Origin: Desulfallas thermosapovorans DSM 6562
Lineage (GTDB): Bacteria; Bacillota; Desulfotomaculia; Desulfotomaculales; Desulfallaceae
Reading direction: 5' to 3'
DNA: 64,000 bases
Assembly (NCBI RefSeq): GCF_008124625.1
Contig: NZ_VNHM01000004.1
Coordinates: 124,001 to 188,000 of the forward strand
Below the pieces are notes generated by a model, which saw only the letters and a program-made list of their open reading frames with translations, ran no database searches and was not told the DNA's origin. Position 1 is the stretch's first letter, and each line of letters starts with the position of its first letter. The position numbers and the translations under genes are program-made. Shown piece after piece: positions 47,522-64,000 of this stretch.

Positions 47522-49240
47522 GTGATTGTAGTAAAAAAGTGGTTAAGCCGGGTATTTATTATGGTTTTCGTATTGTGCCTGGTTTATCCCGGCATGGCCC
47601 GGGCCAACCCGGATGCCGGCAGTGTGATAATGACACTGGGGCAAACCAAGTACTACGTTGATGAAAAAGCCCACATAATGCCAGTGGCGCCAACTGTTCA
47701 TGAAGGGGTTACGCTGGTGCCCCTGCGGGCAATCTCGGACATTTTCGGATTAAGGGCCACGTGGGAACAATACACGGGAGTTATTAACCTGAAACTGGAA
47801 GATGGGCATACAATGCGAATTGACACCCGTAACAATAAAGCCTACCATAGCGCTACCCCGGGCGCCTTTGATGTTACCACAATCATACAGGATGGCAACA
47901 CTCTGGTGCCGCTGCGATTTTTGGCTCAGAACATGAATTATCAAGTTGACTACAACACAAACAGCAAGGAAATTCGCATCAAAAAACTACCGCCACCCAA
48001 CCAGCCTCCTGTGGCCATGTTCAAGCTGTCCCGGGAAACATATGCCCAGGGCGAAACTATAGAATATGAAGACACCAGCTATGACCCCGACGGCGATGAA
48101 ATTATCGAAAGAAAGTGGGAAGGCAGGGAAAACGCATATTTCGCGCCGGGAGAATACCAAGTTTCCCTCACGGTAAAGGACAGCCGTGGTGCATGGAGTG
48201 AACCGTTTGTCCGGAATATAAAAATCACCGAAGAAGAGCTCATGGACCAATTGACCTATTACTTGCACAATCCCGTGCTGGGTAAAAACATCGATGTTTC
48301 AGGGATACCCGTGCTGAGCCTCAATACACTGAACCGGGTGGTTACCCAGACCAGAGAGAGCTTCTTACTTAGTGACAATCCCGAGACCTTTAAAAGGGAC
48401 GGTATATTATACAAAGACGAGGTTGTGGGCGACAACCGCATTCTATACCATCACGCCAACGGCACAAACCAGGACAAAAGCGTTTATTTGCTGGCCATTA
48501 ACAACGGTTCCGAACCCGCTACGGTTCAGGTGAAGCGGCATGGCGTGGCGGGGCCTGCGGACCCCATGGGCGTAGGCCGTTTGGCCGCCTACAATTTCCT
48601 GGGATTTGACCCCTCCCGGGCGTATACCCTGGAACTGCAGCCGGGGGAAAAAGTTATATTAAACAAGGACGCCAAAAATCCATTAAGGCCCGGCCAGACT
48701 GTGCATGGCATTTTCGACGTCCATTCGGATAACCCTGTCACCTTTGCAGTTGTTGCGGTGGGAAAACAGGATCCCATAAATGATTATGATGAACTAATTA
48801 TGCTGCCCCGGGAGGAAACCCATACCAGAGGCACCTTTCAATTGCCCAGCCGCAACATGACGGTACGCGTAACTGATAACCAACCCTCGAGACTTATCAT
48901 CGCCGACGGAAAGGATGATACCTTTCTTTACGGCAAGGACTTAACCAGTGGCCGAAATGTGGTTTATACCAGAAACGTGGGCAACTACGGAGTGGTTTAC
49001 AGTATTACCATTGAGTCCCGGTACAGAGTTGGTTTGTTGCTGAACCCCCGGGGAGGTACCTTTGCCGGGGCCGGCAGTTGGGACGGAGAACCCTTTTATA
49101 TTCCCGAAAGCGGTATCATGAAGACCAAGGAAGAAGCTGCCCTGCTGGGTATTATCGAACCAGGGGAGCGCAAAGTGCTGCAATTCATTCCCCCGGGGGG
49201 TTCTTATTTACCTGTGAATATATTGGTAATTCCCTTTTAA
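47522..49240 (+). CDS. secreted protein with copper-amine-oxidase stalk-like domain and PKD domain
   Basis: An exported protein of 572 residues: a signal peptide ending near PGMARA, two copies of the copper amine oxidase N-terminal (stalk) motif (TLVPLRAISDIFG and TLVPLRFLAQNM, residues 40-155), a PKD-like domain (AMFKLSRETYAQGE...DTSYDPDGDEI, 160-240), and a long C-terminal part that I do not recognise. No membrane anchor or SLH domain is seen. GTG 47522 follows TTATGGAGGT. The stalk domain is common in Firmicute surface proteins and does not imply an oxidase. It lies just before the SLH subtilase. Confidence 0.8.
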   Translation: MIVVKKWLSRVFIMVFVLCLVYPGMARANPDAGSVIMTLGQTKYYVDEKAHIMPVAPTVHEGVTLVPLRAISDIFGLRATWEQYTGVINLKLEDGHTMRIDTRNNKAYHSATPGAFDVTTIIQDGNTLVPLRFLAQNMNYQVDYNTNSKEIRIKKLPPPNQPPVAMFKLSRETYAQGETIEYEDTSYDPDGDEIIERKWEGRENAYFAPGEYQVSLTVKDSRGAWSEPFVRNIKITEEELMDQLTYYLHNPVLGKNIDVSGIPVLSLNTLNRVVTQTRESFLLSDNPETFKRDGILYKDEVVGDNRILYHHANGTNQDKSVYLLAINNGSEPATVQVKRHGVAGPADPMGVGRLAAYNFLGFDPSRAYTLELQPGEKVILNKDAKNPLRPGQTVHGIFDVHSDNPVTFAVVAVGKQDPINDYDELIMLPREETHTRGTFQLPSRNMTVRVTDNQPSRLIIADGKDDTFLYGKDLTSGRNVVYTRNVGNYGVVYSITIESRYRVGLLLNPRGGTFAGAGSWDGEPFYIPESGIMKTKEEAALLGIIEPGERKVLQFIPPGGSYLPVNILVIPF

Positions 49241-49318: not shown

Positions 49319-49388
49319 ATTTATGGCTAAAGTCAACATAATATACTCCTTATGGAGAATTTCCTTGGTGTCTGGAAGGGGGTTTTTA

Positions 49389-52300
49389 GTGAGTTCCAAT
49401 AGGGTAGTGGTTTTTCTGGCGTTGTCACTGGTGGCTGTTGTACTAATCATCTGGCCATCCGGTGTGAGCCCGGATTCGGGTGAGGCGGAAAAAACCGGTG
49501 GGGTTGTTGATGAAACACTGGAACTATACAGCATTCAAATGGGCCGCCCGCTGACAAGCAGTGAAAGGGATGAATTGGCTGAAAAGGTTGACTGGATGGG
49601 GCGGCTTGAAGGTAATGCCATCCTGGTGCGCACTGAACCTGAAAATATAAACAGGTTAAAGGAACTGCCATACGTTAAGGAAATCAATACATACCAGCCC
49701 CAGGAGAAGATAACTGGAGAATTAAAAAACAACGGTGACAGAGAGGCAGCCGGTGGAACACACCCGCCGGCCGGCGAACAAATAGAATTAATGGTTACCC
49801 TGGTCAAAGGGGAAGATAAACTGGACATAGTTAAACTGGTGGAACAGTCCGGCGGTGCGGTTATAGATGGCGCTGCCACACCAGACGTTTACCTGCGGAT
49901 AAAACTGCCCGTTACTAACCTTGAACAATTAACCGCATCCCCACGGGTACTATATGTGGAAGAATATCACCAGCCGGAATTTTTAAATGACCGGGCCGGG
50001 GATATCACCGGGGCCGCGCCGCTGGCAGTACCGGATTTCATTACACCGGGCGGCCTCACGGGTAAAAATTTAATTATCGGGCTGGCCGACAGCGGCCTGG
50101 ACACCGGTAAAATGGGTAATTTACATCCCGATTTAAGCAATGATCCCGGTAAACAACCCCGGGTGTTGATGATCAACTCACTGGCCGGTACCGGTGTCCC
50201 CGCCGACAAAATCGGTCACGGTACCCACATGGCGGGCACCATTGCCGGCAGCGGCGCGGCTTCCGGTGGTAAATACGCGGGCATAGCACCGGAGGCAAGT
50301 ATATATTTTCAGGGTATAGTGGACGCCAACGGCAATATATCACCCCCCCTGGATTTGCAAAGGCTTTTTATGCCCGCCTATGAAGCCGGCGTGCGCATCC
50401 ATGTTAATGGCTGGGGGAGAAAAAACAATAGATATACCAGCACCTCGGCCCAAATAGACCGGTTTGTGCGCGGGCAGGTTGACTTTCTGCCCATATTCGG
50501 GGCGGGGAATTTCGGGCCGGATGTCGGTACCCTGACCACCGAGGCCAACAGTAAAAACGCGCTGGTGGTGGGCGCTTCCCGCAGTCCCAGGCCGGCATTT
50601 GATAATGACAAGGGCAACACCTTCCAGGTGGCCGGCTTCTCCAGCAGCGGTCCCGCCGGTGACGGTAGAATCAAGCCTGAACTGGTGGCTCCGGGAACTT
50701 CAATTATATCTGCTTGCTCCAGCCTGGTGGAAAGCAATTGGCCCGGTCAAACCCATTACACCAGAATGCAGGGCACCAGTATGGCCACCGCGGTAACTGG
50801 GGGATCGGCCGCCCTGCTGGCCGAGTATTTACAGCGCCATACCACCGGTATTGAAAAACCATCGGCGGCTCTGTTCAAAGCAGTGCTCATCAACGGTGCC
50901 CGTTCCCTGGAGGGTGATCTCTACAAAACCGGTTTTGGTTTGCTGGACATGACCGGAACAATATTGGCTCTGGAACAAGACCTTTTCTATCTAGTTGATG
51001 AGCAAAAGGGCGTTGCCGAAGGGGAAACGCTGGCTTGGGAATTTGAAGTGACAGACTCCAAGGCACCTTTTAAGGTTACCCTGGCCTGGACAGATCCTCC
51101 GGCATCCCCGGCGGCCAAAACTGCACTGGTTAATAACTTGGATCTGGTGGTAACAGGCCCCGGGGGTAAAAAATACCTGGGTAATGACCGCGACGGTCGC
51201 GGGCTGCAGGATAACATAAATAACGTTGAGCAGGTGGTCATTGAAAAACCTGCTCCCGGTAAGTATAAAATTGAAGTGTACGGTACCTCCGTGGATACAA
51301 ATGCCTCTGCGGTTTTAAACATGGTGAAACAGGATTTTGCCCTGGTATACGGGCAGCCACCCGTGCAAAGCACGGTAACAGGTGTTGCACAGGACAAATT
51401 GACCCTGGCTGATGGAACTACTGTGGACAGGCCCGAAAATTTAAAAACCATCCTGAACGGAGAAATCGTTTCCGGAGTTGTGCTGCCCGGTGCCGACCTT
51501 TACCTGGCCGGGCCGTCCGTTAACCCGGCGGCGCTGGCAGTCAGCCGGAACCTGCAGGTACCGGGTATCAAGGTGCTCACCTCAGAGGAGGGCACGCTGC
51601 TGGTCAGGATTAATCGACAATACCGGGAAGGTGGGTATTATATTGATGAGCATCCCAAAAACACCATTGAACTCAATGGCATGAAACTATCCGGAGCAAC
51701 GGGCATACCACCCGGTGCTGGTATTGAAGCCTCGGTTAATCCCACCAGCCAAAGGTTATGGCGGGTACAAGCCACAAGCCACGAGCAGGAAGGGATTATT
51801 AAAAGCCTCGATCTTGATAACCGGGAACTGGAGCTATTAAATAATGACAAGCTGAAGATCGACCCCAATCTCGCCATTATGCTAAATGACACCATTGTTG
51901 AAGGTGATCCCGAGGCACTGCCCTTCGGTGCCCCGGTGTCCAGCGATGTGGAAAATATTGTGCCCGGAATGCCCGTGCGCCTGATAATGGACCAGGACCA
52001 AACCGTTTATTACATGGCGCTGGATCGCCACATTGTTGTGGGCGGCATTGCAGCGGTGGACGTAAACGGCGGAAAAATTACATTAACTTCCGGTGGGGAA
52101 TACCAGGTACTGCCCGGTGTTAAAATGCTCCGGAATAACCGGGAATCATCAATGCAGGCATTGCGACCAGGCGACCTGGTTATGGGCACCGTCAACCCGG
52201 GTACCAACCAGCTGCTGGGCCTTACGGTTTACACCACCTGGGTATACGGGAAAGTGTTTTTTGCAGGCCAGAATACCCTATATATTACCGACAACAACCA

Positions 52301-53504
52301 GGTGAACCGGGAGTATAAATTTACACCCAAAACCCAGGTCTACCGCTGGGGCCTGGCCTCGGACACTTCACTTTTGGCGCCGGGCCAGTGGGTGCGTTTA
52401 ATTATAGATACCGGCACCAACACGCTATTCAGGGTGGATATTGCCGAAACCGGTTTTCAGGGCCAGGAAGTTATTGAGTCCTGGGACCGGCAAAACAGCC
52501 GGTTAAGCACCACATCCGGCAAGGAGTATATTATCAGCTCCAAAACATCAGTAACCAAAAACGGTTACCCGGTACATGCCGGGGATTTGCGTTCCGGGGA
52601 AGAGGTTGCACTGGTTTCCCTGCGGGGGCAGAATAACAAGCAGATACTGGTATCGGCAGCGGCCAGCAGCTATGTTGAAAACAGCAATTTGTCCCTGTCC
52701 GTTGACTCCACCATACCCTTTGAGGAGTTCACCATAATTAAGGGAAAGACGCCGGCCACCAAGCTTACGGCCTGGTATGCCGACGGTAGATCCGAGCCCG
52801 TACAGTTGACCGGCGGGGAATTCTATTACCCGGTATATTACCCCCACGGGGGCGGTGTGCAGCTTGTGGCTGTGGATGAAGCAAGTGGCGCAGTTACGGG
52901 AATAAGTGTAAAACTGCCCAACAACCAGGGTAAGGTCTTTGAAGACCTGGACGGGCACTGGGCCGAGACCGATGTGCTGAGCCTGGTTTCACGGGGATTA
53001 ATTGCCGGCTATGCCGGTGATACTTTCCGGCCCGGGCAACCCATATCAAGGGCCGAGTTTACCGTGATGCTGGCCCGGTTGCTGGGGGGGCAAAACAATA
53101 CCGTACCCCGGCAAGGCTTTAAAGATGATGACGATATACCCAGCTGGGCCAGGTCCTCGGTGTACCTGGCCAGTTCCCGGGGACTGATTACAGGTTATGA
53201 AGATGACACATTCCGCCCCCGGGCACTGCTCACCAGGGCGGAAGCTGCCGTTATGTTTATCCGGTTGGCCCAGGCTTTGAATATGGGCTGGGATGAAACA
53301 AAACCCGCTCCCCAATACAATGATGCGGTCAGCATACCCGATTGGGCGCTAAGCAGTGTGGATAGTGCCGGGCGGGCGGGCCTGCTGACCGGCAGGCCCG
53401 GCAACAAGTTTGAACCGCAGGCAAACATTACCCGGGCAGAAACAGCGGCGGTAATGAACCGGCTGCTAAAATTATTGAACAGACCCGCTGCCCAAGCACA
53501 ATAG
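49389..53504 (+). CDS. SLH-anchored subtilisin-like serine protease
   Basis: A cell-surface S8 protease of about 1371 residues. A signal segment (VVVFLALSLVAVVLIIW) is followed by a propeptide-like region (to about 200) and the catalytic domain with Asp in GLADSGLDTG, His in GHGTHMAGTIAG and Ser in GTSMATAVTGG. After a P/homB-like domain come several beta modules of about 60 residues (850-1190) related to those in the 60088 protein, and three C-terminal SLH domains (VFEDLDGHWAE, FKDDDDIPSWA, YNDAVSIPDWA) binding pyruvylated wall polymer. GTG 49389 follows GGAAGGGGG and is preferred over ATG 49323. Confidence 0.92.
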   Translation: MSSNRVVVFLALSLVAVVLIIWPSGVSPDSGEAEKTGGVVDETLELYSIQMGRPLTSSERDELAEKVDWMGRLEGNAILVRTEPENINRLKELPYVKEINTYQPQEKITGELKNNGDREAAGGTHPPAGEQIELMVTLVKGEDKLDIVKLVEQSGGAVIDGAATPDVYLRIKLPVTNLEQLTASPRVLYVEEYHQPEFLNDRAGDITGAAPLAVPDFITPGGLTGKNLIIGLADSGLDTGKMGNLHPDLSNDPGKQPRVLMINSLAGTGVPADKIGHGTHMAGTIAGSGAASGGKYAGIAPEASIYFQGIVDANGNISPPLDLQRLFMPAYEAGVRIHVNGWGRKNNRYTSTSAQIDRFVRGQVDFLPIFGAGNFGPDVGTLTTEANSKNALVVGASRSPRPAFDNDKGNTFQVAGFSSSGPAGDGRIKPELVAPGTSIISACSSLVESNWPGQTHYTRMQGTSMATAVTGGSAALLAEYLQRHTTGIEKPSAALFKAVLINGARSLEGDLYKTGFGLLDMTGTILALEQDLFYLVDEQKGVAEGETLAWEFEVTDSKAPFKVTLAWTDPPASPAAKTALVNNLDLVVTGPGGKKYLGNDRDGRGLQDNINNVEQVVIEKPAPGKYKIEVYGTSVDTNASAVLNMVKQDFALVYGQPPVQSTVTGVAQDKLTLADGTTVDRPENLKTILNGEIVSGVVLPGADLYLAGPSVNPAALAVSRNLQVPGIKVLTSEEGTLLVRINRQYREGGYYIDEHPKNTIELNGMKLSGATGIPPGAGIEASVNPTSQRLWRVQATSHEQEGIIKSLDLDNRELELLNNDKLKIDPNLAIMLNDTIVEGDPEALPFGAPVSSDVENIVPGMPVRLIMDQDQTVYYMALDRHIVVGGIAAVDVNGGKITLTSGGEYQVLPGVKMLRNNRESSMQALRPGDLVMGTVNPGTNQLLGLTVYTTWVYGKVFFAGQNTLYITDNNQVNREYKFTPKTQVYRWGLASDTSLLAPGQWVRLIIDTGTNTLFRVDIAETGFQGQEVIESWDRQNSRLSTTSGKEYIISSKTSVTKNGYPVHAGDLRSGEEVALVSLRGQNNKQILVSAAASSYVENSNLSLSVDSTIPFEEFTIIKGKTPATKLTAWYADGRSEPVQLTGGEFYYPVYYPHGGGVQLVAVDEASGAVTGISVKLPNNQGKVFEDLDGHWAETDVLSLVSRGLIAGYAGDTFRPGQPISRAEFTVMLARLLGGQNNTVPRQGFKDDDDIPSWARSSVYLASSRGLITGYEDDTFRPRALLTRAEAAVMFIRLAQALNMGWDETKPAPQYNDAVSIPDWALSSVDSAGRAGLLTGRPGNKFEPQANITRAETAAVMNRLLKLLNRPAAQAQ

Positions 53505-54062: not shown

Positions 54063-54089
54063 AAAAGGGAGCGAATTTCGCTCCCTTTT
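54063..54089. terminator. Bidirectional terminator between hicA and the anti-sigma gene
   Basis: AAAGGGAGCG and CGCTCCCTTT form a symmetrical stem with A and T runs on the two sides, so it can serve both converging genes. Confidence 0.82.
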
Positions 54090-55233
54090 ATTGCTCTAAC
54101 CAAATGACAATTTTATGCTTGCCAGTATCGCTTTCCCAGTCTTTTAACTGCTGCTTGATTTCGTTCATGCGTTGTTGTGTTTTTTCCTGTTCTCCAGCAC
54201 TGGCGCCGCTCCTTAATTGAGCATCCAGCCATTGATACTGTTCCACCAGGTTATTGTACTGGTCGCTGATATCCTTGCTGTTTTTATCCTTAACCTGCAG
54301 AGCCCCCAGCCTTTCCAGACCGGCGATTAATTGGCCGGCGTTACTTTGGTCTACGGTAAGCTCATAGGCCAAATACTTTTCCCCGGCGGTGTTTCGGGAT
54401 TCCATCAAGCGCAAGTTTGCATTATGCTGTCCCGCAAGTGAATTTACCTGCTCCCTGACCGTCTCGGGCTCTTCCACCCTGGTTTTAATCAGGGTGCTTT
54501 CTATAAGCCTCTGTTTTTCCGTGCTGAGCAGTGCGACTATCTCAGGATCTTGCTCTGTGCCGGTGGCCGGGTTAGGTGTATTCTGGTTTGCCGGCGGTGT
54601 ATCGCTGTCCCCGTTCCCTGTTGACGGATTATCCGGGGTATTCACATCGTGGTCATTTTCACTGTTACTATTTTGAGGGCCGGTATCTTCCCCAACCCGG
54701 TCACCGGGGGTATTGTTACCGCCGGGAACAGTTTCCGTGTCATTGCCGGGTTCCTGAACCGGTGCGGTGGTTTCGTTATCTCCAGGCTCTGTTTTTTCTA
54801 TCAGGGCTTTGTTAATACCGGCCAGCTGGGTTCCCTCGGTCAAGCCTGAGTAGGTGGCCATGGCATAACTCCCGCAGGCAATAAGGACAGTGGCTGCCGC
54901 GGCGGCAATGCCCCGCTTCCAGTTGGCCATTGCGCTCGCCCATCTTCCTACTCTGCCCCTGCTACTATTGTGCCCGCCGCTGGCTGTCAAGCTCTGTGAA
55001 CCTGCTTCCGGTTCGGCGATGCGGCTCATCACCGCAGCAGAAAACCCCTCGGGTGCAGGTATTTCCATCGCGCATGCGCGCAATTCTGCCTGAATCTCCT
55101 GTAAAATTACCAGGTCTTCCCGGCAGGCGGTGCATTCGCCCAGGTGCCTTTCCACTGCTTCGGCTTGGGCCTGATCCAATTCGCCGTCAAGCCAGGCCGA
55201 AATCATTTCCTTTATATGATTGTCGCATTGCAT
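54088..55233 (-). CDS. zinc-finger anti-sigma factor with extracellular DUF4349-like region
   Basis: A protein of 381 residues. The N-terminal zinc anti-sigma domain has the H..C..C pattern (HLGECTACRED), followed by one membrane helix (RGIAAAAATVLIACGSYAMA, about 110-130), an acidic Asn/Thr/Pro-rich linker (150-240) and a C-terminal part with a coiled-coil segment (SDQYNNLVEQYQWLDAQL) like DUF4349. It would hold the ECF sigma factor encoded just upstream until released, probably by proteolysis. ATG 55233 follows AGGCGGTGAT. Confidence 0.85.
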   Translation of the reverse strand: MQCDNHIKEMISAWLDGELDQAQAEAVERHLGECTACREDLVILQEIQAELRACAMEIPAPEGFSAAVMSRIAEPEAGSQSLTASGGHNSSRGRVGRWASAMANWKRGIAAAAATVLIACGSYAMATYSGLTEGTQLAGINKALIEKTEPGDNETTAPVQEPGNDTETVPGGNNTPGDRVGEDTGPQNSNSENDHDVNTPDNPSTGNGDSDTPPANQNTPNPATGTEQDPEIVALLSTEKQRLIESTLIKTRVEEPETVREQVNSLAGQHNANLRLMESRNTAGEKYLAYELTVDQSNAGQLIAGLERLGALQVKDKNSKDISDQYNNLVEQYQWLDAQLRSGASAGEQEKTQQRMNEIKQQLKDWESDTGKHKIVIWLEQ

Positions 55234-55253
55234 ATATATCACCGCCTGTCAGT

Positions 55254-55856
55254 TCAATGCTTTTTTTTGCCGGGTAATTGTATATCCCTGGCCCAGGCCT
55301 CTTTTAAAATCATTTTCTTTAAATTCTGCCGCGCCCTGTTAATCCTTGATTTTACCGTACCCAGGGAACAGTTCATAATTTGGGCAATCTCATCATAATT
55401 ATAGCCATGCATTTCCCTTAAAATTAAAACGGTCCTGTGCTCCTCGGATAACCCATTCATTGTCCTTTGAACCAGAGAGCTAAACTCTTTGCGTTCAATG
55501 ATATCTTCGGGAGACTCATCATCCGAGGGTACATCAAAGGACACTTCACCGTTATCCGTAGTTATGGTGGCGTCCAGCGACAACTCCGGCCTCCGGCGCC
55601 GTTTGGTGTTTATCCACAGGTTGACGGTGATGCGGTGTATCCAGGTACCGAAGTCCGCTTCATTCCGAAATCCGGACAGGGAGCGGTAAGCTTTGACAAA
55701 AGCCTCCTGGGCAAGATCCTGGGCGTCGGATTGGCTGTTAGTCAATTGATAACAAAGGGCATAAACTTTGTTTTGGTACATTTTGACCAACTGCTCAAAC
55801 GCCTCGGTGTGTCCCTTTTTTGATTTATCCACCAGCAGCTTTACGGTGTTGTCCAA
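55254..55856 (-). CDS. sigW: ECF (SigW/RpoE-like) RNA polymerase sigma factor
   Basis: A group 4 sigma factor of 200 residues: region 2 (AFEQLVKMYQNKVYALCYQL...DAQDLAQEAFVKAYRSL), the acidic linker and region 4 (LSEEHRTVLILREMHGYNYDEIAQIMNCSLGTVKSRI). The membrane anti-sigma gene follows after 20 bases on the same strand. TTG 55856 follows GGAAGGA. The stress or envelope signal is unknown; the surrounding cell-surface genes are possible targets. Confidence 0.88.
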   Translation of the reverse strand: MDNTVKLLVDKSKKGHTEAFEQLVKMYQNKVYALCYQLTNSQSDAQDLAQEAFVKAYRSLSGFRNEADFGTWIHRITVNLWINTKRRRRPELSLDATITTDNGEVSFDVPSDDESPEDIIERKEFSSLVQRTMNGLSEEHRTVLILREMHGYNYDEIAQIMNCSLGTVKSRINRARQNLKKMILKEAWARDIQLPGKKKH

Positions 55857-56423: not shown

Positions 56424-58655
56424 TTGTTTAAACCCAAAACAAAGAGAACAATTTCATTGGCAGTTGCTCTGGTGTTCTTGTTCACAGTAATTATGCCGAT
56501 GAGCGCATTTGCTGACACTGATTATGCAAAGTTTAGTAGTGCCTATAACTACCTTACAGCTGAGGACGAAGTTAATGCAGGCTCTGCTACTGTGAAATCC
56601 AAAGCTTATGGTGATGCTGAAGACATTCAGATTAAGTTAACATTACCATCCGGTGTAGAATTTACTGACAAACCAAAAAGTAGCGATGTTGGCAGTGGTC
56701 AATTCGTGAGCTTTACTGGATTACTTTTTACGTATATTAAATCCGATTCCTCTAGTATAACTGTGAGAGGCGGAAATAATTACGGCGGAAACATTACTGA
56801 TTGGGATGCTAATGGTACAACAAGCGTAGTGTTTGATTTTGCTAAGAAGAAAATTGATATTGATTCAGATTTTACTGGTAACATAGATGTTAATGTTGAA
56901 GTTTGGGGTATTAAGGGTGACAAGGTGTTATGGAGCGAGTCTGATGACCTTACCATAGCTAAGGTAGCAGGTTCCGAAAAAGTTATGGTGTCAGCTAAAT
57001 CCCCCAAAAGTATAACTAAAGGTAAAAATAAGACAGGTGCAGACATTAAAGTTTACGAAACCAAAAATGGCGTATTTCCAGTTGATGAAGTAGTAGTGTT
57101 CGATATTATGACCAATGGTGTAAAATTCAATGATAATACTACTAATGGCTCCAACCAATGGGTTAATTGGCAGGTAGCAAGCTTTACGGATGCAACAGGT
57201 GATCGAGGAACAGTTAATATTACAAACAATGACAAGGATCAGATCGTTTATCAGCCTGCAAAGACATCTTCAATATTCCCCGGGGATATTGTATTCACAC
57301 CAAAGCTTGACGTAGACCCTGATGTGACTGGCGAAATTGAGATCCGTGTAAGCAGTGCGAAAGCAGATGGTAGTGGTAGCAATCTTACTGCTGGCAAGAG
57401 CACCTCAACCATTAGCAGAACCACTGTGGTTGTAGCTACCGTTGGCGACACCAAGGCGGTAGTTGATAAGCTGGAAGACAACGACACCATTGCATACAGT
57501 GGCCAAGTGACCGATTTGGACGTTGAAATAACCATTGAAGCTGAAGGCGATGCTGAATTCAAGAAAGACGATTCGATGGAGTTTACGCTCAATGTAGGTG
57601 AGTTTGTTTTTAATGCAGTTCCTACAGTTAAATTTAACAATAGCAGTAGTAGTCAAGATGTAGATCTTTACAATAACAATAAATCTTTCTACGTGTCATT
57701 TAACGGTGGCGAAGAAAAATTTACTTTGAGCAATTTCAACATTGTTTTACCTAACGATGTTGAACCCGGCGACATCACCCTGACCATCGATGGCGACTAC
57801 GGTGATCTGGGCGAAGTAACCATTGGTGTGGCAGCTGCTCCCATTACACTTAGTGCTGAGAAAACCCCGATTCTTGCTGAAGCTTTGAACCAACAAGCCG
57901 GCGACATAACAATCACCGAAACTGGTGACGGAGCACTGAAAAAAGACGGCATATTGGTATTGGAACTGCCCTCCGGCATTGAGCTGAACGGCAAGCCCAA
58001 GCTGGACGTAGTAGAGGGTAACTTTGACGGTGACATCAGTGTAGTTGACGATAAGTACATTGCTATTAAAGTTAAAAAAGAAAGCTCTGATGCCAGTGAA
58101 ATCAGGCTTTACAACATCAACTACGACACTGGCCGCCTAGCTCTGAACGGTGATGTGGAACTTAAGGCTTATTTTGTTGACCCAGAAGTTATTGCAAACG
58201 AAGAAGAACTTCCATTAAATACTTATATCAGTGACTCTGTTTCTAACAATCTTGATAGATACGACGACACCGGCGTAATTGCTAGAGTAGCCAACGCAAC
58301 CGTCGCTAACGAAAATGAAATCGTTGCTACCTTCGCAGTTGGTGACGAAGGCGTAGCCGTTGTGAACGGTCGTACTCTGGTACAAGTAAACAAACTGTGT
58401 GACGTGCTCGGCATGCAAAAGAGCTGGGACGAAGTCACCAAGACTGCTTACTTTGTACTGAACGGCAAAGTGGTTGCCTTCCCGATGGGCGAAAACGCCA
58501 TCTACATCAATGGCACCAAAATTGCTGTTGACCAGGGCGGTAAAATCATCAATGATTTCACCTATGCAACCCTGCGCGGCATTCAAATGGCCTTTGGTGG
58601 AGAACTCGATTGGGATGACGCCACCAAGACCGCTACCTTCAAGTTCGTTAAGTAA
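56424..58655 (+). CDS. S-layer-like secreted protein with C-terminal copper-amine-oxidase-type domain
   Basis: An exported, acidic, low-complexity protein of 743 residues. Signal peptide to about residue 31 (SLAVALVFLFTVIMPMSAFA). The body is a series of beta-rich modules with repeated patterns (LPSGVEFTDKPK..., LPSGIELNGKPK...), Asp- and Val-rich and almost free of Cys. The end (from about 640) holds the stalk-type motif GRTLVQVNKLCDVLGM and FTYATLRGIQMAFGG. It is AT-richer than its neighbours and codon-biased as for high expression. TTG 56424 follows AAGGAGGGAAACG. A major surface protein role is inferred; no SLH domain is seen. Confidence 0.75.
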   Translation: MFKPKTKRTISLAVALVFLFTVIMPMSAFADTDYAKFSSAYNYLTAEDEVNAGSATVKSKAYGDAEDIQIKLTLPSGVEFTDKPKSSDVGSGQFVSFTGLLFTYIKSDSSSITVRGGNNYGGNITDWDANGTTSVVFDFAKKKIDIDSDFTGNIDVNVEVWGIKGDKVLWSESDDLTIAKVAGSEKVMVSAKSPKSITKGKNKTGADIKVYETKNGVFPVDEVVVFDIMTNGVKFNDNTTNGSNQWVNWQVASFTDATGDRGTVNITNNDKDQIVYQPAKTSSIFPGDIVFTPKLDVDPDVTGEIEIRVSSAKADGSGSNLTAGKSTSTISRTTVVVATVGDTKAVVDKLEDNDTIAYSGQVTDLDVEITIEAEGDAEFKKDDSMEFTLNVGEFVFNAVPTVKFNNSSSSQDVDLYNNNKSFYVSFNGGEEKFTLSNFNIVLPNDVEPGDITLTIDGDYGDLGEVTIGVAAAPITLSAEKTPILAEALNQQAGDITITETGDGALKKDGILVLELPSGIELNGKPKLDVVEGNFDGDISVVDDKYIAIKVKKESSDASEIRLYNINYDTGRLALNGDVELKAYFVDPEVIANEEELPLNTYISDSVSNNLDRYDDTGVIARVANATVANENEIVATFAVGDEGVAVVNGRTLVQVNKLCDVLGMQKSWDEVTKTAYFVLNGKVVAFPMGENAIYINGTKIAVDQGGKIINDFTYATLRGIQMAFGGELDWDDATKTATFKFVK

Positions 58656-58673
58656 TTAAACTTAATTGAACGG

Positions 58674-58703
58674 AAAACCCGGGCTTTTATAGCCCGGGTT
58701 TTT
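58674..58703 (+). terminator. Strong terminator of the S-layer-like gene
   Basis: AAACCCGGGCT and AGCCCGGGTTT form an 11-bp stem with a 5-nt loop and a T5 end. Confidence 0.92.
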
Positions 58704-58806
58704 ACATTACAGGACCCTTTGTAATGATGGCGTTGGCTTGACTAGCCAGGCAAGTACTATTATACTTAAATAGGTAAATAATTTATCAATCAAAGGGGTT
58801 GGTGGC

Positions 58807-59931
58807 ATGCGGCGGGCCGTAGTTATTACTTTGGCTACTTTTGCTATGATTTTCTGTTTCGCCCTGGTATCATTCGCTTCTGAAGAAGAACAGAATTTGC
58901 AGGAACCTGTACGTGAAGAGCTTTCCTTGGAAGATGCAATAAACAACGCGCTTAAAAACAGTTTCAGTATACAACAGGCGGAACTTGATGTTGACCGGGC
59001 TAATGAAGTCCGGGATAAGGCCTGGGATCTGCATGGTTACATGATGCAACGAACATGGGTGGAAACGGAACAGGCTTATATGACCTTGCCCGGCATGGAT
59101 GATAACTCCCTTTTCCAGGCCCTGGGTGCAGATCGCGCGGCGCACATCCAGAAGAGAACCTTTGAAATAACCTGCGATGCTTTAGCGATGCAGGTTACCC
59201 AAATCTATTATGATATTATTAAAAAACAAAATGAAATAGAAACGGCCAAGTTGGCAGTGGAAATAGCTGAGCGGGGTTGCAAAATAGCCAGGATGCAAAA
59301 GCAAGTGGGCATGGGCACCGAAGCAACGGTACAGGCCAAAAATGCGGAGCTGGAAAATGCCAGGAGTGCTTTGGAAGCTGCCCAGGCCGGCTTGGAAAAC
59401 GCCTACCGTTCATTGAATAAACTGATGGGCAAAGATGAAAAGTTGAGACCTCAATTGACAACGCCGGTAAATTTTGAAAAATTGGAGATACCTTCCTTGG
59501 AGGCTGAAATTGCAAGGGCAATGAATCCCAACCAAAACCCCTATTTGTGGTCTTTAAAAGAAGGCCACGAGCTGAAAAAATATACTTGGACTATTACCCA
59601 GCCTGCTGAAGCCGGTAAAATTGATATTGATAAAGCCAAGCTGACTTATGAAGAAGCCCGGGTGGAGACGCGCAACAAAATGAATGAGCTAAACGAAACC
59701 CTGAAGACACTGGAGGCTTCCTATATTTCTGCCCAAGAGGCATTGTCAACCGCCCAATTGAATTTAAAGAACGCCCAAATTTTATATGAGGCCGGTATGA
59801 TAACTAAGGATGATGTTTTAAATAGCGAGATGGCTGTTGCCCGGGCCGAGAATGCTTTGCTTAACCTAACAATAAGTTACGAATTGAGCAAGCTGAATTT
59901 TAAAAAGCCCTGGTTATCATTTATGGCCTAA
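58807..59931 (+). CDS. TolC-like (outer-membrane-efflux family) protein, short barrel segments
   Basis: An exported protein of 374 residues (signal peptide to about residue 25). Two halves each show the TolC helix signature: VGMGTEATVQAKNAELENAR with LEAAQAGLENAYRSL, and AGMITKDDVLNSEMAVARA with LLNLTISYELSKL. The segments that would form the membrane beta strands are short, about 40 residues in half 1 and 20 in half 2. In a single-membrane organism it may form only the helical tunnel. ATG 58807 follows AAAGGGG. It precedes an SLH protein, a MarR gene and a membrane-fusion gene, pointing to an efflux or secretion complex. Confidence 0.85.
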   Translation: MRRAVVITLATFAMIFCFALVSFASEEEQNLQEPVREELSLEDAINNALKNSFSIQQAELDVDRANEVRDKAWDLHGYMMQRTWVETEQAYMTLPGMDDNSLFQALGADRAAHIQKRTFEITCDALAMQVTQIYYDIIKKQNEIETAKLAVEIAERGCKIARMQKQVGMGTEATVQAKNAELENARSALEAAQAGLENAYRSLNKLMGKDEKLRPQLTTPVNFEKLEIPSLEAEIARAMNPNQNPYLWSLKEGHELKKYTWTITQPAEAGKIDIDKAKLTYEEARVETRNKMNELNETLKTLEASYISAQEALSTAQLNLKNAQILYEAGMITKDDVLNSEMAVARAENALLNLTISYELSKLNFKKPWLSFMA

Positions 59932-59947
59932 GTATTATAATTTTTAC

Positions 59948-59984
59948 GCGCAGTCCCGTCACAAAAGGGTGCTGCGCTTTATTA
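59948..59984 (+). terminator. Terminator after the TolC-like gene
   Basis: GCGCAG pairs with CTGCGC around an 18-nt loop, followed by TTTATTATT. A weaker internal CCC/GGG pairing is possible. Confidence 0.55.
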
Positions 59985-60087
59985 TTGTGTAAGTTTTTCC
60001 CCTTCTTGGACAGGACTTGGCATCATGTTTGTCGAAGTTAAAATTTAAAGCAATGGTGAAAGAAATACCAGGGGAGTGAATTATATC

Positions 60088-62514
60088 ATGGGAAAGCGAA
60101 GCCTGCTTGGGAAATGCATGGTTATTTCGCTGGCCTTGCTGTTGGCCATGCTTTTCAGCGGAGCGGCACTAGCCGGTTTTTCAGACGTAAAGGCCGACCA
60201 CTGGGCGGCCAATATAATTAAAACAATGTCGGAGAAAGGAATTGTAAGCGGCTATCCAGACGGCACCTTTAAACCAAACAATACCGTGAGCCAGGTGGAA
60301 GCGGTGTGTATGGCTGTTAGAAGCATGGGCCTGCAGGCTGCGTCTCAGGGATCATTACCTGAGATTACTTTTCCTGTACCCGGTTATGCGGAAAACGATG
60401 TCAAACTTGCCCTGCAGCATGGCCTGATCAAGGACACCGACCAATTCAGCGCTTACAGTGCTGCCAACAGGGCCTGGGTGGCCAGGTTATTGGTGCGGAT
60501 GATCGGCAAAGAATCCGAAGCCCAGGAAGAACTATTAATGCCCGTGTTCACCGATATGTCCCAGATCCCGGATTGGGCCGTTTACTATGTGCGGGTGGCC
60601 CAGGATTATGATTTGATAGCGGGCTACCCGGACAAATCATTTAAGCCTTACCGGGAAGTTACCCGGGCGGAAATGGTTTCCTTTTTAAGCCGTGCCATGG
60701 ATAAACTGCCAGGAACGGGTGGTGTTGCCGGCAATACTGGTAGCGTCGGCGTTCAGCAGGCGGCCGGGACGGTCAAAGGTTTGATAGTAAAGGTTTACCC
60801 GGAAATCGGTGCATTTGTTGTGGAGGAGGCCGGTGGCAATCTCAGGACACTATACTTGCCGGAAAACGCCTCTATTTCCGTGGTGGGCTCCAGCAGTCAG
60901 GGCTTAAATGCGTTGCAGCCCGGTGATGAGGTAAGTGTTGGACTGGACAGCCGGGGCTACGTTATCAGCATCAGTGTGACAGATCGTAGCGGTTATCCGG
61001 GTACGGAAGGCACTGTTTTTGACTTGGATCTGGATAATATGCTGTTAACCCTTCAATTAAATGATAATCGCTTGCAGCCATACCGGCTAGGCAAATATGT
61101 AAATGTAACGGCTCCGGGGGTCAGATTCCCTTCCCTGAATGACATCATCACAGGCGACCGGGTTAAAGTAACTGTTGAAGGCAGCGAAGTCATTGGCATT
61201 GAAATTCTAGAGGTTGCCTCGCGGCTCACCGTAACCGGTAAAGTTATTACGCTCAACACCGCCATGAATTTTGTCAACCTGGAGGTTGACGGCAGAATGC
61301 ATGTTTATTCCCTGCCGGCCAGTGTTCAGGTAAACATTTCGGGTATGACCAATGCGTATATTTCCGATGTGCAGGAAGGGGATACGGTTACCGCTACCAT
61401 CAATAACGGCGAAATAACTTCCCTGACTGTTACCGGTCGCCGGGGGGACAATGATTTAAATGCCACTATCATGGCCGTGGATACTGTTAATGACCGGGTT
61501 ACCTTGAAAGACCGCAATGGCAAAATAAATGTTTACGATGTACTGAGCAATGCCCGTATCATAATAGATGACGATGATGATGCAGAGTTAAGTGACCTTA
61601 AACAGGATATGGATGTTAAGTTCCGGCTCAAGGATGGGGATATCATTTACCTGGAAACCGACAACAAAGTGGGCGGCATAATTACCAGCATCGATGCCGA
61701 CAGCCTGATTATGGAGTTTCAAAGGGATAACGGCGAGAGAAAAACCTACTTTATAGCTAAAAGCGCCGACGTAAACAGCAAGGATAACCGTGATGATATA
61801 GATGAAATTAGAAGGGGCGAGTATGCTTACCTGACATTGTCCGGCGATAAGGTGCTGGAAATAGACCTGAAGAGTACAATAATCTACCGGGTTGAAAGGG
61901 TTAGGGACTCCGTAGACCGGTTGGATGTGGTGGATGATGATGACGACAGCGACCGGTTGTATATCCGGTCCGGTGTGAAACTAATCATCCCCGGTATAAC
62001 TTACCCCGGTGTTTCAGATGTGAAAGAGGGCGATCTGGTAAGGGCTGTTTTCAGTGGAGATGATTTGAAGTCCGTGGAAGTGCTGGAACCGTTGTATGGT
62101 CAGGTGACATTTATCGATACCGCCCGCAGCACCGTAACCCTGCAGCTCTTTAACGGCAGAACCACCACCCTTGACTTCAGAAACCGCAGTATGGTGAACG
62201 ATGGTGGCAGAACATACTCCAACCTGAGCGCCCTGACCACGGGTGACCGGGTGGAAGTTATAGAAAACAGTGACGGTGGCTATGTGTTCAGGGTTATGGA
62301 GGAAGTATCCAGCAAACTGGCCTTTAGTGCTGAAAGGGATGCCGATAGCATTTACCTCGTAAAGGGTAACAGCTGGGAGAGATATAATTTACACAGTGAT
62401 GTGTATATTCACAACGCAAGCGGAAAAACCTTGGGTAAAGGAGATTTAAAGAGCGGCTACAGGGTTGTAATATATACATTCCGGGATATGGTTTACGAGG
62501 TTGTCGTTGAGTAA
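60088..62514 (+). CDS. SLH-domain protein with tandem beta repeats
   Basis: A wall-anchored protein of 808 residues. After the signal peptide (to about residue 31) come three SLH domains (FSDVKADHWAANIIKTMSEKG, a degenerate middle copy, and FTDMSQIPDWAVYYVRVAQDYD, to about 215). The rest is at least six tandem modules of 60-70 residues of the form G-x-V-x-x-(I/L)-D-x(5)-(V/L)-T-L ... GD-x-V ... (V/I)-x-x-I-x-V, similar to DUF5666-type beta folds, with an Asp-rich insertion near residues 500 and 615 that could bind cations. ATG 60088 is 11 nt after GGGGAG. It lies between TolC-like and MarR genes. Confidence 0.85.
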   Translation: MGKRSLLGKCMVISLALLLAMLFSGAALAGFSDVKADHWAANIIKTMSEKGIVSGYPDGTFKPNNTVSQVEAVCMAVRSMGLQAASQGSLPEITFPVPGYAENDVKLALQHGLIKDTDQFSAYSAANRAWVARLLVRMIGKESEAQEELLMPVFTDMSQIPDWAVYYVRVAQDYDLIAGYPDKSFKPYREVTRAEMVSFLSRAMDKLPGTGGVAGNTGSVGVQQAAGTVKGLIVKVYPEIGAFVVEEAGGNLRTLYLPENASISVVGSSSQGLNALQPGDEVSVGLDSRGYVISISVTDRSGYPGTEGTVFDLDLDNMLLTLQLNDNRLQPYRLGKYVNVTAPGVRFPSLNDIITGDRVKVTVEGSEVIGIEILEVASRLTVTGKVITLNTAMNFVNLEVDGRMHVYSLPASVQVNISGMTNAYISDVQEGDTVTATINNGEITSLTVTGRRGDNDLNATIMAVDTVNDRVTLKDRNGKINVYDVLSNARIIIDDDDDAELSDLKQDMDVKFRLKDGDIIYLETDNKVGGIITSIDADSLIMEFQRDNGERKTYFIAKSADVNSKDNRDDIDEIRRGEYAYLTLSGDKVLEIDLKSTIIYRVERVRDSVDRLDVVDDDDDSDRLYIRSGVKLIIPGITYPGVSDVKEGDLVRAVFSGDDLKSVEVLEPLYGQVTFIDTARSTVTLQLFNGRTTTLDFRNRSMVNDGGRTYSNLSALTTGDRVEVIENSDGGYVFRVMEEVSSKLAFSAERDADSIYLVKGNSWERYNLHSDVYIHNASGKTLGKGDLKSGYRVVIYTFRDMVYEVVVE

Positions 62515-62578
62515 GAGTCCTTTCGAATAGTATGAAGAATTTTTGGCGAACAGCTTCCATATGACTATCTCAAAAAAG

Positions 62579-62608
62579 GTCGTCCTTTAATGCAAAGGGC
62601 GGCTTTTT
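62579..62608 (+). terminator. Terminator after the SLH gene
   Basis: GTCGTCCTTT pairs with AAAGGGCGGC (two G-U pairs) around a 5-nt loop, followed by T5. Confidence 0.75.
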
Positions 62609-62705
62609 CCTTTTTCTCCCATTCAAATTGCGATTGACAAGCATTAACATAACAAATTATACTTAACCCAGTAAATTATTCACGGCACAAACAAACATTG
62701 CAAAA

Positions 62706-62776
62706 AACTGTCCGAAAAGTCCCGGCGGGATCCACTTGTGATCCCTGGGCTGGCTGGCTTTTTGCGTTGCCCGCGC
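62706..62776 (-). repeat. Family 2 structured repeat, copy 3 (inverted)
   Basis: On the minus strand it reads GCAACGCAAAAAGCC, then the hairpin GGGAT-CACAAGTGG-ATCCC (62727-62745) and CGCCGGGACTTTT. The loop CACAAGTGG is shared with the other copies while the stem has G-C in place of A-T. A Family 1 arm abuts it at 62778. Confidence 0.55.
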
Positions 62777-62777
62777 G

Positions 62778-62793
62778 GGTGCCGGGTGTTGAA
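62778..62793 (+). repeat. Family 1 repeat, single arm
   Basis: GGTGCCGGGTGTTGAA is identical to the arm at 1207. It lies 35 bases before the MarR gene. Confidence 0.6.
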
Positions 62794-62827
62794 AAAATCT
62801 ACAAAAACAAAAAGGGGGGAGATGGGA

Positions 62828-63295
62828 ATGAATCAGGAAATCATGTTGCGTTATATTGATCGCCTGGAGGAGATGCAGGGGCGCTTTATCCGTCGCATTC
62901 ACCAGGAGTTGGTGGGCATGCTGGACCCCAGCATTACCGGTCACCAGTTTGTGGTGCTCAAAATGATCAAAGACGGCGGCCAGATGACGGTATCCCAGGT
63001 GGCTGAATACCTGGGCGTCTCTTTAAGCGCCGTTACCGCGATGGTGGACCGGTTGTGCAAAGCCGGGATGTTGGAACGCCGTCGTTCCGAAGAAGACCGC
63101 CGCGTGGTTTGGCTGGAAATCACCGGGGAAGGGCGGCGGGTGGTTCAATTATGCGACGAAGGGCGGAGGCGGATAATTATGCGCTACCTGGAACTGGTCA
63201 CGGAAGAAGATTTATTACATATGATAAAAATTTACGAAAGAATAATAGCTTTTATGAGGCAGGAGGAGGCACAGCAAACACCGGGCAAGGTGTAA
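62828..63295 (+). CDS. MarR-family transcriptional regulator
   Basis: A winged-helix regulator of 155 residues: TGHQFVVLKMIKDGGQMTVSQVAEYLGVSLSAVTAMVDRLCKAGMLERRRSEEDRRVVWLEIT covers the DNA-binding domain, with helices at both ends for dimerisation. ATG 62828 is 7 nt after AAAAGGGGGGAG; ATG 62822 is too close. It heads the membrane-fusion gene by 51 bases, so it probably controls this transporter operon. Confidence 0.93.
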   Translation: MNQEIMLRYIDRLEEMQGRFIRRIHQELVGMLDPSITGHQFVVLKMIKDGGQMTVSQVAEYLGVSLSAVTAMVDRLCKAGMLERRRSEEDRRVVWLEITGEGRRVVQLCDEGRRRIIMRYLELVTEEDLLHMIKIYERIIAFMRQEEAQQTPGKV

Positions 63296-63346
63296 TTTTA
63301 CCTATACATTTTGAGTCAACTCACAAGTAGAGAGGGGAGAGTTAGG

Positions 63347-64000
63347 ATTAAGCGCAAAGTAATTTATTTACTAATCAGCCTGCTGGTTATATCATTTTCC
63401 CTGGCCGGCTGCGGCGGCCAGGATAAACCAAATACCGAACAGGAAGAAACAGTCGTTCCAGTTCAAACGGCGGCGGTGGAAAGGGGTGTCATTAATGACA
63501 CCATTGTTGTCACTGGTAAATTGGAAGCCATTGCTACTTCTAATGTTGTGCCCAGCGGTCCGGGCGGCAAGGTTTTAGCCGTTAATGTGGAAGTAGGCAG
63601 CCAGGTCAGTAAAGGGCAAACGCTGATAACCCTGGAAAATCCCTCTGAAGCTTCGCTGGCGGCGGCGATTCACCAGGCCGAGCAGGGTGTGGCCCAGGCC
63701 CAGTCCAATTTGGAAATTGCCCGTATCAATTTTGAGCAAGCTGCGGCCAATTATGAGCGGGGCAAGCAGCTCTATGACGCAGGGGCAATCCCCCAGGCGG
63801 GACAGGCGGGTTTTGAAACCGTCTATGAAATACCATACAAACAAGCCAAGGTTAATTATGAGCAGGTGGCCCCTGCAGCGCTGGCTAGTGCTGAGGCGGC
63901 CGTGGCTGCGGCCAGGGAAAGATACCAGGAACAACAAAACAACTCACTGATCAAGTCACCCATCAGTGGTGTGGTCACTGCCGTCAATGTCAATCCCGGT
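63347..64000 (+). CDS. HlyD/RND-type membrane fusion lipoprotein (5' part), probable ATT start
   Basis: The first 218 codons of a periplasmic-adaptor-type protein; the gene runs off the window. The N-terminus KRKVIYLLISLLVISFSLAGCGG is a lipoprotein signal with lipobox LAGC. VVPSGPGGKVLAVNVEVGSQVSKGQTLITLE is the first half of the barrel-sandwich (lipoyl) domain, followed by a helical hairpin and SPISGVVTAVNVNPG. The only start near the ribosome site (GGGGAG, 63334-63339) is ATT 63347; TTG 63311 has no ribosome site. Partner pump genes (MacB- or AcrB-type) are expected just downstream. Confidence 0.85.
   Translation, partial: MKRKVIYLLISLLVISFSLAGCGGQDKPNTEQEETVVPVQTAAVERGVINDTIVVTGKLEAIATSNVVPSGPGGKVLAVNVEVGSQVSKGQTLITLENPSEASLAAAIHQAEQGVAQAQSNLEIARINFEQAAANYERGKQLYDAGAIPQAGQAGFETVYEIPYKQAKVNYEQVAPAALASAEAAVAAARERYQEQQNNSLIKSPISGVVTAVNVNPG

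Follow-up and report, generated by a model that had tools for sequence, protein, structure and literature searches.

Stubenrauch et al. (2022, PMC8809574) proposed that monoderm Firmicutes have a TolC-dependent pump that crosses the S-layer, with the TolC-like protein seated in that layer, and the exporter concept is therefore already known in outline. In that paper one protein was modelled with a reduced, hydrophilic barrel domain, and the homology model of a C. difficile TolC-like protein has an omission in the barrel domain. It also posed the question of how monoderm TolC-like proteins are assembled without BAM. In the order to which our organism belongs, the OEP-family protein Dred_3141 was found in the surfaceome of D. 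reducens and its authors suggested a role in type I secretion (PMC4137172). We found nothing on barrel-less or tandem TolC beyond PMC8809574 in the literature searched, with subscription papers and preprints outside its scope.

The window we analysed is a stretch of 64,000 nucleotides from a spore-forming bacterium, whose 2.96-Mb genome is 99.99% complete. Its end carries what is likely a TolC-type efflux system suited to single-membrane cells, in which the TolC-like protein is probably the exit duct of the neighbouring pump through the cell wall. As with the TolC-like proteins of PMC8809574, there are operons with adaptor and pump genes, S-layer genes and no detectable outer membrane. Unlike in that work, both barrel hairpins are absent from all 75 barrel-less sequences collected here, with a clean gap to the barrel-bearing ones. 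As far as the literature searched shows, a barrel loss this complete and clean throughout the phylum is new, as are its coupling to BamA, the tandem pairs of barrel-less and barrel-bearing genes, the operons ending in an SLH gene and the promoter motif shared by duct and pump genes.

With AcrAB-TolC of E. coli (PDB 5ng5, 9tg4) the locus has in common an AcrB-family RND pump, the R and L of the RLS tip in the membrane-fusion protein (MFP) and the helical fold of TolC. It differs from it in having no beta-barrel and no outer-membrane marker or BamA, and in that the duct gene is transcribed separately from MFP/RND, with an operator-like motif common to both. Dred_3141 is likewise an OEP-family protein and was found on the cell surface together with PF07833 proteins, but that work established neither a structure nor a function for it (PMC4137172). 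In MmpS5L5 of Mycobacterium tuberculosis, a coiled-coil tube is reported to be part of the pump (PMC12501195), whereas here the duct is a separate TolC homologue. The features of the locus are, in window numbering:

47522-49240, PF07833-PKD protein, 572 aa
49323-53504, + strand, SLH-anchored subtilase with Peptidase S8, PPC and three SLH domains
54088-55242, - strand, zinc-finger anti-sigma factor, partner of the ECF sigma factor
55254-55856, - strand, ECF sigma factor; with its partner it diverges from the PF07833/TolC pair and is conserved alongside it
56424-58655, + strand, secreted protein with beta repeats and a PF07833 domain at the C-terminus (copper amine oxidase N-like, E 7.1e-17)
58673-58703, terminator before the TolC-like gene (-23.1 kcal/mol, z -6.4)
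58760-58783, + strand, promoter/operator-like motif before the TolC-like gene (-35 at 58738, -10 within the motif)
58807-59931, + strand, TolC-like protein, 374 aa (PF02321 OEP, E 3.9e-22)
59948-59977, + strand, intrinsic terminator after the TolC-like gene (-17.5 kcal/mol, z -3.3)
60076-62514, + strand, SLH protein, 812 aa (PF00395, E 5.3e-26)
62574-62608, + strand, intrinsic terminator after the SLH gene (-17.8 kcal/mol, z -5.4)
62657-62680, + strand, second exact motif copy, before MarR-MFP-RND (-35 TTGACA at 62634)
62738-63295, + strand, MarR-family regulator that opens the MarR-MFP-RND operon (PF01047, E 1.3e-17)
63311-64522, + strand, MFP/periplasmic adaptor lipoprotein, 403 aa (PF16576 E 7.2e-25, PF13437, TIGR01730-like; lipobox LAGC)
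64527-67661, beyond the window end, RND pump, 1044 aa (PF00873, E 3e-279)

The preliminary description had placed TolC-like, SLH, MarR and MFP genes on one strand. All four are present on the + strand with curated family matches, and the terminators it had read after the TolC-like and SLH genes were both upheld (z -3.3 and z -5.4). The PF07833, TolC-like and SLH genes are set apart by terminators. The MarR operon has a promoter-like site of its own, and so has the TolC-like gene. The nearest partner of the TolC-like gene, overlooked in the preliminary description, is the upstream PF07833 protein (56424-58655). The true start of the MarR gene is probably the ATG near 62828, behind the ribosome site GGGGGGAG.

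The TolC-like protein has a Sec signal peptide with no lipobox at its end, as judged from sequence. PF02321 matches it twice, once in each half, and covers only profile positions ~84-187, compared with 2-187 in E. coli TolC. When a profile of 28 relatives was compared with the PDB, it matched TolC in two helical blocks (E 1.8e-19). Its AlphaFold model is all helical (pLDDT 87, pTM 0.80), with helices at residues 41-51, 53-76, 100-166, 172-207, 231-238, 245-264, 267-328 and 334-366, and aligns to E. coli TolC over 315 residues with Z 26.0 and rmsd 3.3 (VIA-align). The protein therefore has the two-repeat helical hairpin domain homologous to TolC. The two beta-hairpins that each protomer contributes to the barrel are missing. 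In the model the site of hairpin S1-S2 is a low-confidence loop and that of S4-S5 a two-residue turn. Nearly 60 residues are absent at S4-S5 in the alignment to E. coli TolC, and the segment between TolC residues 240 and 315 has 15 aa vs 74 in E. coli. Since both barrel hairpins are absent, we ruled out an ordinary TolC and regard the protein as a TolC homologue that is not an outer-membrane factor. Information content was somewhat higher at the adaptor-facing tips (2.05 and 2.54 bits) than near the lost barrel (1.83 and 2.06), a mild trend which we did not retain as an argument. The protein led us to six named relatives, which are MAGs of Desulfoscipio geothermicus and, at 67% identity, Desulfallas sp. 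Bu1-1; they place our organism in the Desulfotomaculum group.

Only the first 230 of the 403 aa of the MFP lie inside the window (63311-64000), and the gene is complete past its end. Extending the window beyond 64000, as the preliminary description had advised for finding the pump genes, revealed the RND gene directly after it. An AcrB-type (HAE) RND pump (PF00873, E 3e-279) is encoded 5 nt behind the MFP, which in turn follows MarR by 16 nt. The RND gene lies about 4.6 kb from the TolC-like gene. The genome has one RND gene and one OEP gene, the latter with two OEP matches within it, and the two are therefore paired by exclusion. A third, sub-threshold OEP match on contig 20 was rejected as a second OEP gene, since it is an adaptor-type protein. 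MFP hairpin tips carry a TolC-docking RLS motif, RxxxLxxxxxxS (PMC3391258). The tip found here, YERGKQLYDAGAIP, keeps R and L and has P in place of S. We dropped the motif as proof of docking since R and L are also present in 8 of 10 MFPs without a TolC neighbour. Several relatives have a short 218-aa HlyD-type protein after RND or MFP (L052:15708-16364, L037:17128-17784, L069:7140-7796), which once overlaps a 522-aa ORF of unknown type and is missing from our locus.

Duct and pump genes are linked by a 24-base motif, TTATACTTAA-N4-GTAAATNATT, which occurs in exact form before both the TolC-like gene and MarR-MFP-RND. No third exact copy exists in the 2.96-Mb genome. There are five further matches with three mismatches, compared with two for a reversed control pattern, and 0.01 matches with up to three mismatches are expected in the window. 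In relatives, with our own genome left out, at least 15 of the 20 motif positions were found before 48% of TolC-like genes (n=27, p about 6e-11) and 71% of MarR genes (n=17, p about 8e-11) but before 1% of 250 other genes, with p-values that overstate independence because the relatives are akin to each other. The motif overlaps the -10 hexamer and part of the enrichment is therefore promoter-like sequence; the part outside the -10 was also enriched (MarR 76%, TolC 30%, others 4%). The threshold was reached before 2 of 18 SLH genes. Read most simply, the motif is a MarR operator, to which MarR is predicted to bind. As far as sequence can tell, the link between the TolC-like gene and the pump goes beyond proximity.

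To see how constant the locus is, the preliminary description had called for a survey of related genomes. The neighbourhood recurs in relatives and, in other lineages without BamA, forms tight MFP-RND-TolC-TetR-SLH operons with near-zero gaps; the part that did not hold is the SLH gene at 60076, which is absent from this place in most of the order. In those other BamA-negative lineages MFP was near the TolC-like gene in 17/20 loci and RND in 14/20, and an SLH gene lay at most three genes downstream in 13/20. Within our order the corresponding numbers, in the counted gene range, were 12/33 for MFP and 7/33 for RND, and 4/33 for SLH. The steadiest partner of the TolC-like gene in the order is the PF07833 protein and not the pump, which is a counter-point to the pump reading. 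It lies upstream in 28/33 loci, often with a sigma/anti-sigma pair. Homologues of the PF07833-PKD protein (47522-49240) were seen immediately after the TolC-like gene in several relatives.

The TolC-like protein could accordingly be a structural component of the wall or S-layer that acts with the PF07833 beta-repeat protein and has no part in a pump. Besides the 28/33 loci, the presence of both PF07833 and OEP proteins in the surfaceome of D. reducens speaks for it. However, the motif common to the TolC-like gene and the pump operon reached 15 positions before none of the 29 PF07833 genes of relatives, and in other lineages the TolC-like gene stands in operons with MFP-RND or ABC-MFP. We consider this explanation unlikely. 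The codon bias of the PF07833 protein, looked at as a sign of very high expression, was nothing special.

Another way to read the exit duct is that it works mainly, or also, for ABC transporters of the MacAB-like or type I secretion kind, and RND would be one client among several. E. coli TolC indeed serves several transporters as clients. Two relatives (G010 and G011) have MacAB-type operons of ABC, MFP, a MacB/FtsX-type permease and the TolC-like gene, similar operons occur elsewhere (L148, L151, L158), and our genome has an MFP-ABC cluster at a separate site (L055). Against this, the exact motif is present in our genome only at the TolC-like gene and at MarR-MFP-RND, and we regard a mainly or partly ABC-serving duct as improbable.

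The surface proteins around the duct may hold it. The preliminary description had mentioned tandem beta modules in the SLH protein at 60076, and these are eight repeats of ~73 aa each, next to three SLH domains. Model residues 33-212 match the SLH domain of B. anthracis Sap with Z 21.9, and the genome encodes a CsaB-type pyruvyl transferase (PF04230, E 1e-41). Together with 19 SLH matches, this transferase fits an SLH-binding wall. Structure matches of the beta modules (Foldseek and VIA: CusF, CspA, DDB1 and others, all with Z below 10) were rejected as generic small beta-barrels. That this very protein holds the duct is at most a possible reading. Its gene is the least conserved part of the locus, lacks the shared motif and was ruled out as a fixed partner in the order (4/33 loci). 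Homologues of its modules (E 1.6e-10 and 8e-10) nevertheless occur elsewhere, in the SLH proteins that close the pump operons of other lineages. The SLH-subtilase (49323-53504) is a kept upstream neighbour; in much of the order its homologues lie close to the TolC-like gene, and in other lineages they are the last gene of MFP-RND-TolC-TetR-SLH operons (E down to 1e-47). Since homologues of both the modules and the subtilase end pump operons elsewhere, SLH proteins and TolC pumps keep company.

Peptococcaceae are described in the literature as monoderm and lacking outer-membrane markers (PMC5007114). The search for marker genes that the preliminary description had proposed found neither BamA (PF01103) nor LpxC in our genome. 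BamA was absent from all 60 genomes of the order, and the same search was positive in seven known controls. In 9 of these 60 BamA-negative genomes we observed LpxC homologues (E 1e-54 to 1e-64; for example L082:9916-10746, L083:9530-10402, L084:9558-10412). They lie apart from other lipid A genes, within a conserved glycan-type cluster whose other genes look by eye aminotransferase-like, WbqC-like, oxidoreductase-like and FemAB/GNAT-like, and are perhaps a deacetylase redeployed for other use. An unrecognised outer membrane with an ordinary TolC, at which these homologues hint, is therefore ruled out for practical purposes, given the glycan-type setting, the absence of BamA from the order and of BamA and LpxC from our genome, and a TolC-like protein without a membrane barrel.

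The wall-spanning exporter of the preliminary description thus stands in part. Of the two outcomes that the description had named as refuting, an outer membrane and a neighbourhood not conserved in relatives, neither was observed. The missing BamA and LpxC, the RND gene after the MFP and the link through motif and operons support it, while a TolC without a barrel and an SLH protein (60076) that is little conserved depart from it. We propose that the RND pump, seated in the cell membrane, and the lipoprotein MFP would pass substrates to the TolC-like exit duct, presumably a trimer onto which the MFP docks. The duct would keep its tunnel of helices as well as the hairpin tips by which it contacts the adaptor. 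Its beta-barrel would have been lost because there is no outer membrane to enter and no BamA for insertion. It would stand in the zone of the cell wall and S-layer, amid SLH and PF07833 surface proteins that might hold it, and let substrates out either at the wall or outside it. The surface location of Dred_3141 in D. reducens speaks for this reading. The duct may not be long enough to span a thick wall completely. Through one and the same operator, the MarR repressor would probably control the TolC-like gene, which stands apart, as well as the pump operon.

Barrel loss is not confined to this protein. In 105 sequences, the region of TolC residues 240-315 has 15-24 residues in 75 and 52-131 in the rest, with none between. 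A second, independent count agreed, save for a few ill-aligned rows. We compared this with BamA in 149 genomes across the phylum, 35 of them BamA-positive, which is how diderm is defined in this comparison. At least 30 genomes have a full-length, barrel-bearing OEP among the matches listed, and 29 of 30 were BamA-positive (Fisher p 7e-24). Apart from G141, BamA-negative genomes have solely barrel-less OEP among the matches listed. In G141 we noted one barrel-bearing OEP among the matches listed (G141:C160:1058-1621, L104). This assembly has 450 contigs, the protein forms a long branch in the tree, and it is possibly contamination.

In BamA-positive relatives, barrel-less and barrel-bearing OEP genes are often adjacent (e.g. 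L121, L122, L123, L125, L126, L129). The gene order in L126 and L129 is MFP-RND-barrel-less-barrel-TetR, and the same frame recurs in BamA-negative genomes, minus the barrel gene and with an SLH gene at the end. In a tree of the helical part, the tandem barrel partners group with all of the barrel-less proteins, at support 93/98 and with several long branches. The unconstrained tree needs five changes, and a single barrel-less clade is compatible with the data (p-AU 0.117). Because of the E. coli outgroup, loss of the barrel rather than its gain is the simpler reading. In L128 (G091:C137), one open frame of 716 aa has scores for RND as well as OEP and is perhaps a fusion or an open-ended frame.

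Two genomes have the barrel-less/barrel tandem inside one MFP-RND operon. Tentatively, barrel-less TolC might be a conduit module of its own, which together with a barrel TolC would build a two-storey tunnel in a four-part pump. The barrel storey would have gone with the outer membrane, and the helical storey would have been kept as a wall conduit. We think this less likely than not by a clear distance, but if it is true, the transition from diderm to monoderm cells is recorded in pump genes.

To the question of how monoderm TolC-like proteins are assembled without BAM (PMC8809574), our results suggest the answer that there is no membrane barrel there to assemble. The split of the barrel along BamA and the tandem pairs would make the diderm-to-monoderm transition readable in one gene family. 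For Gram-positive sulfate reducers, the locus suggests drug-type efflux via a dedicated wall duct.
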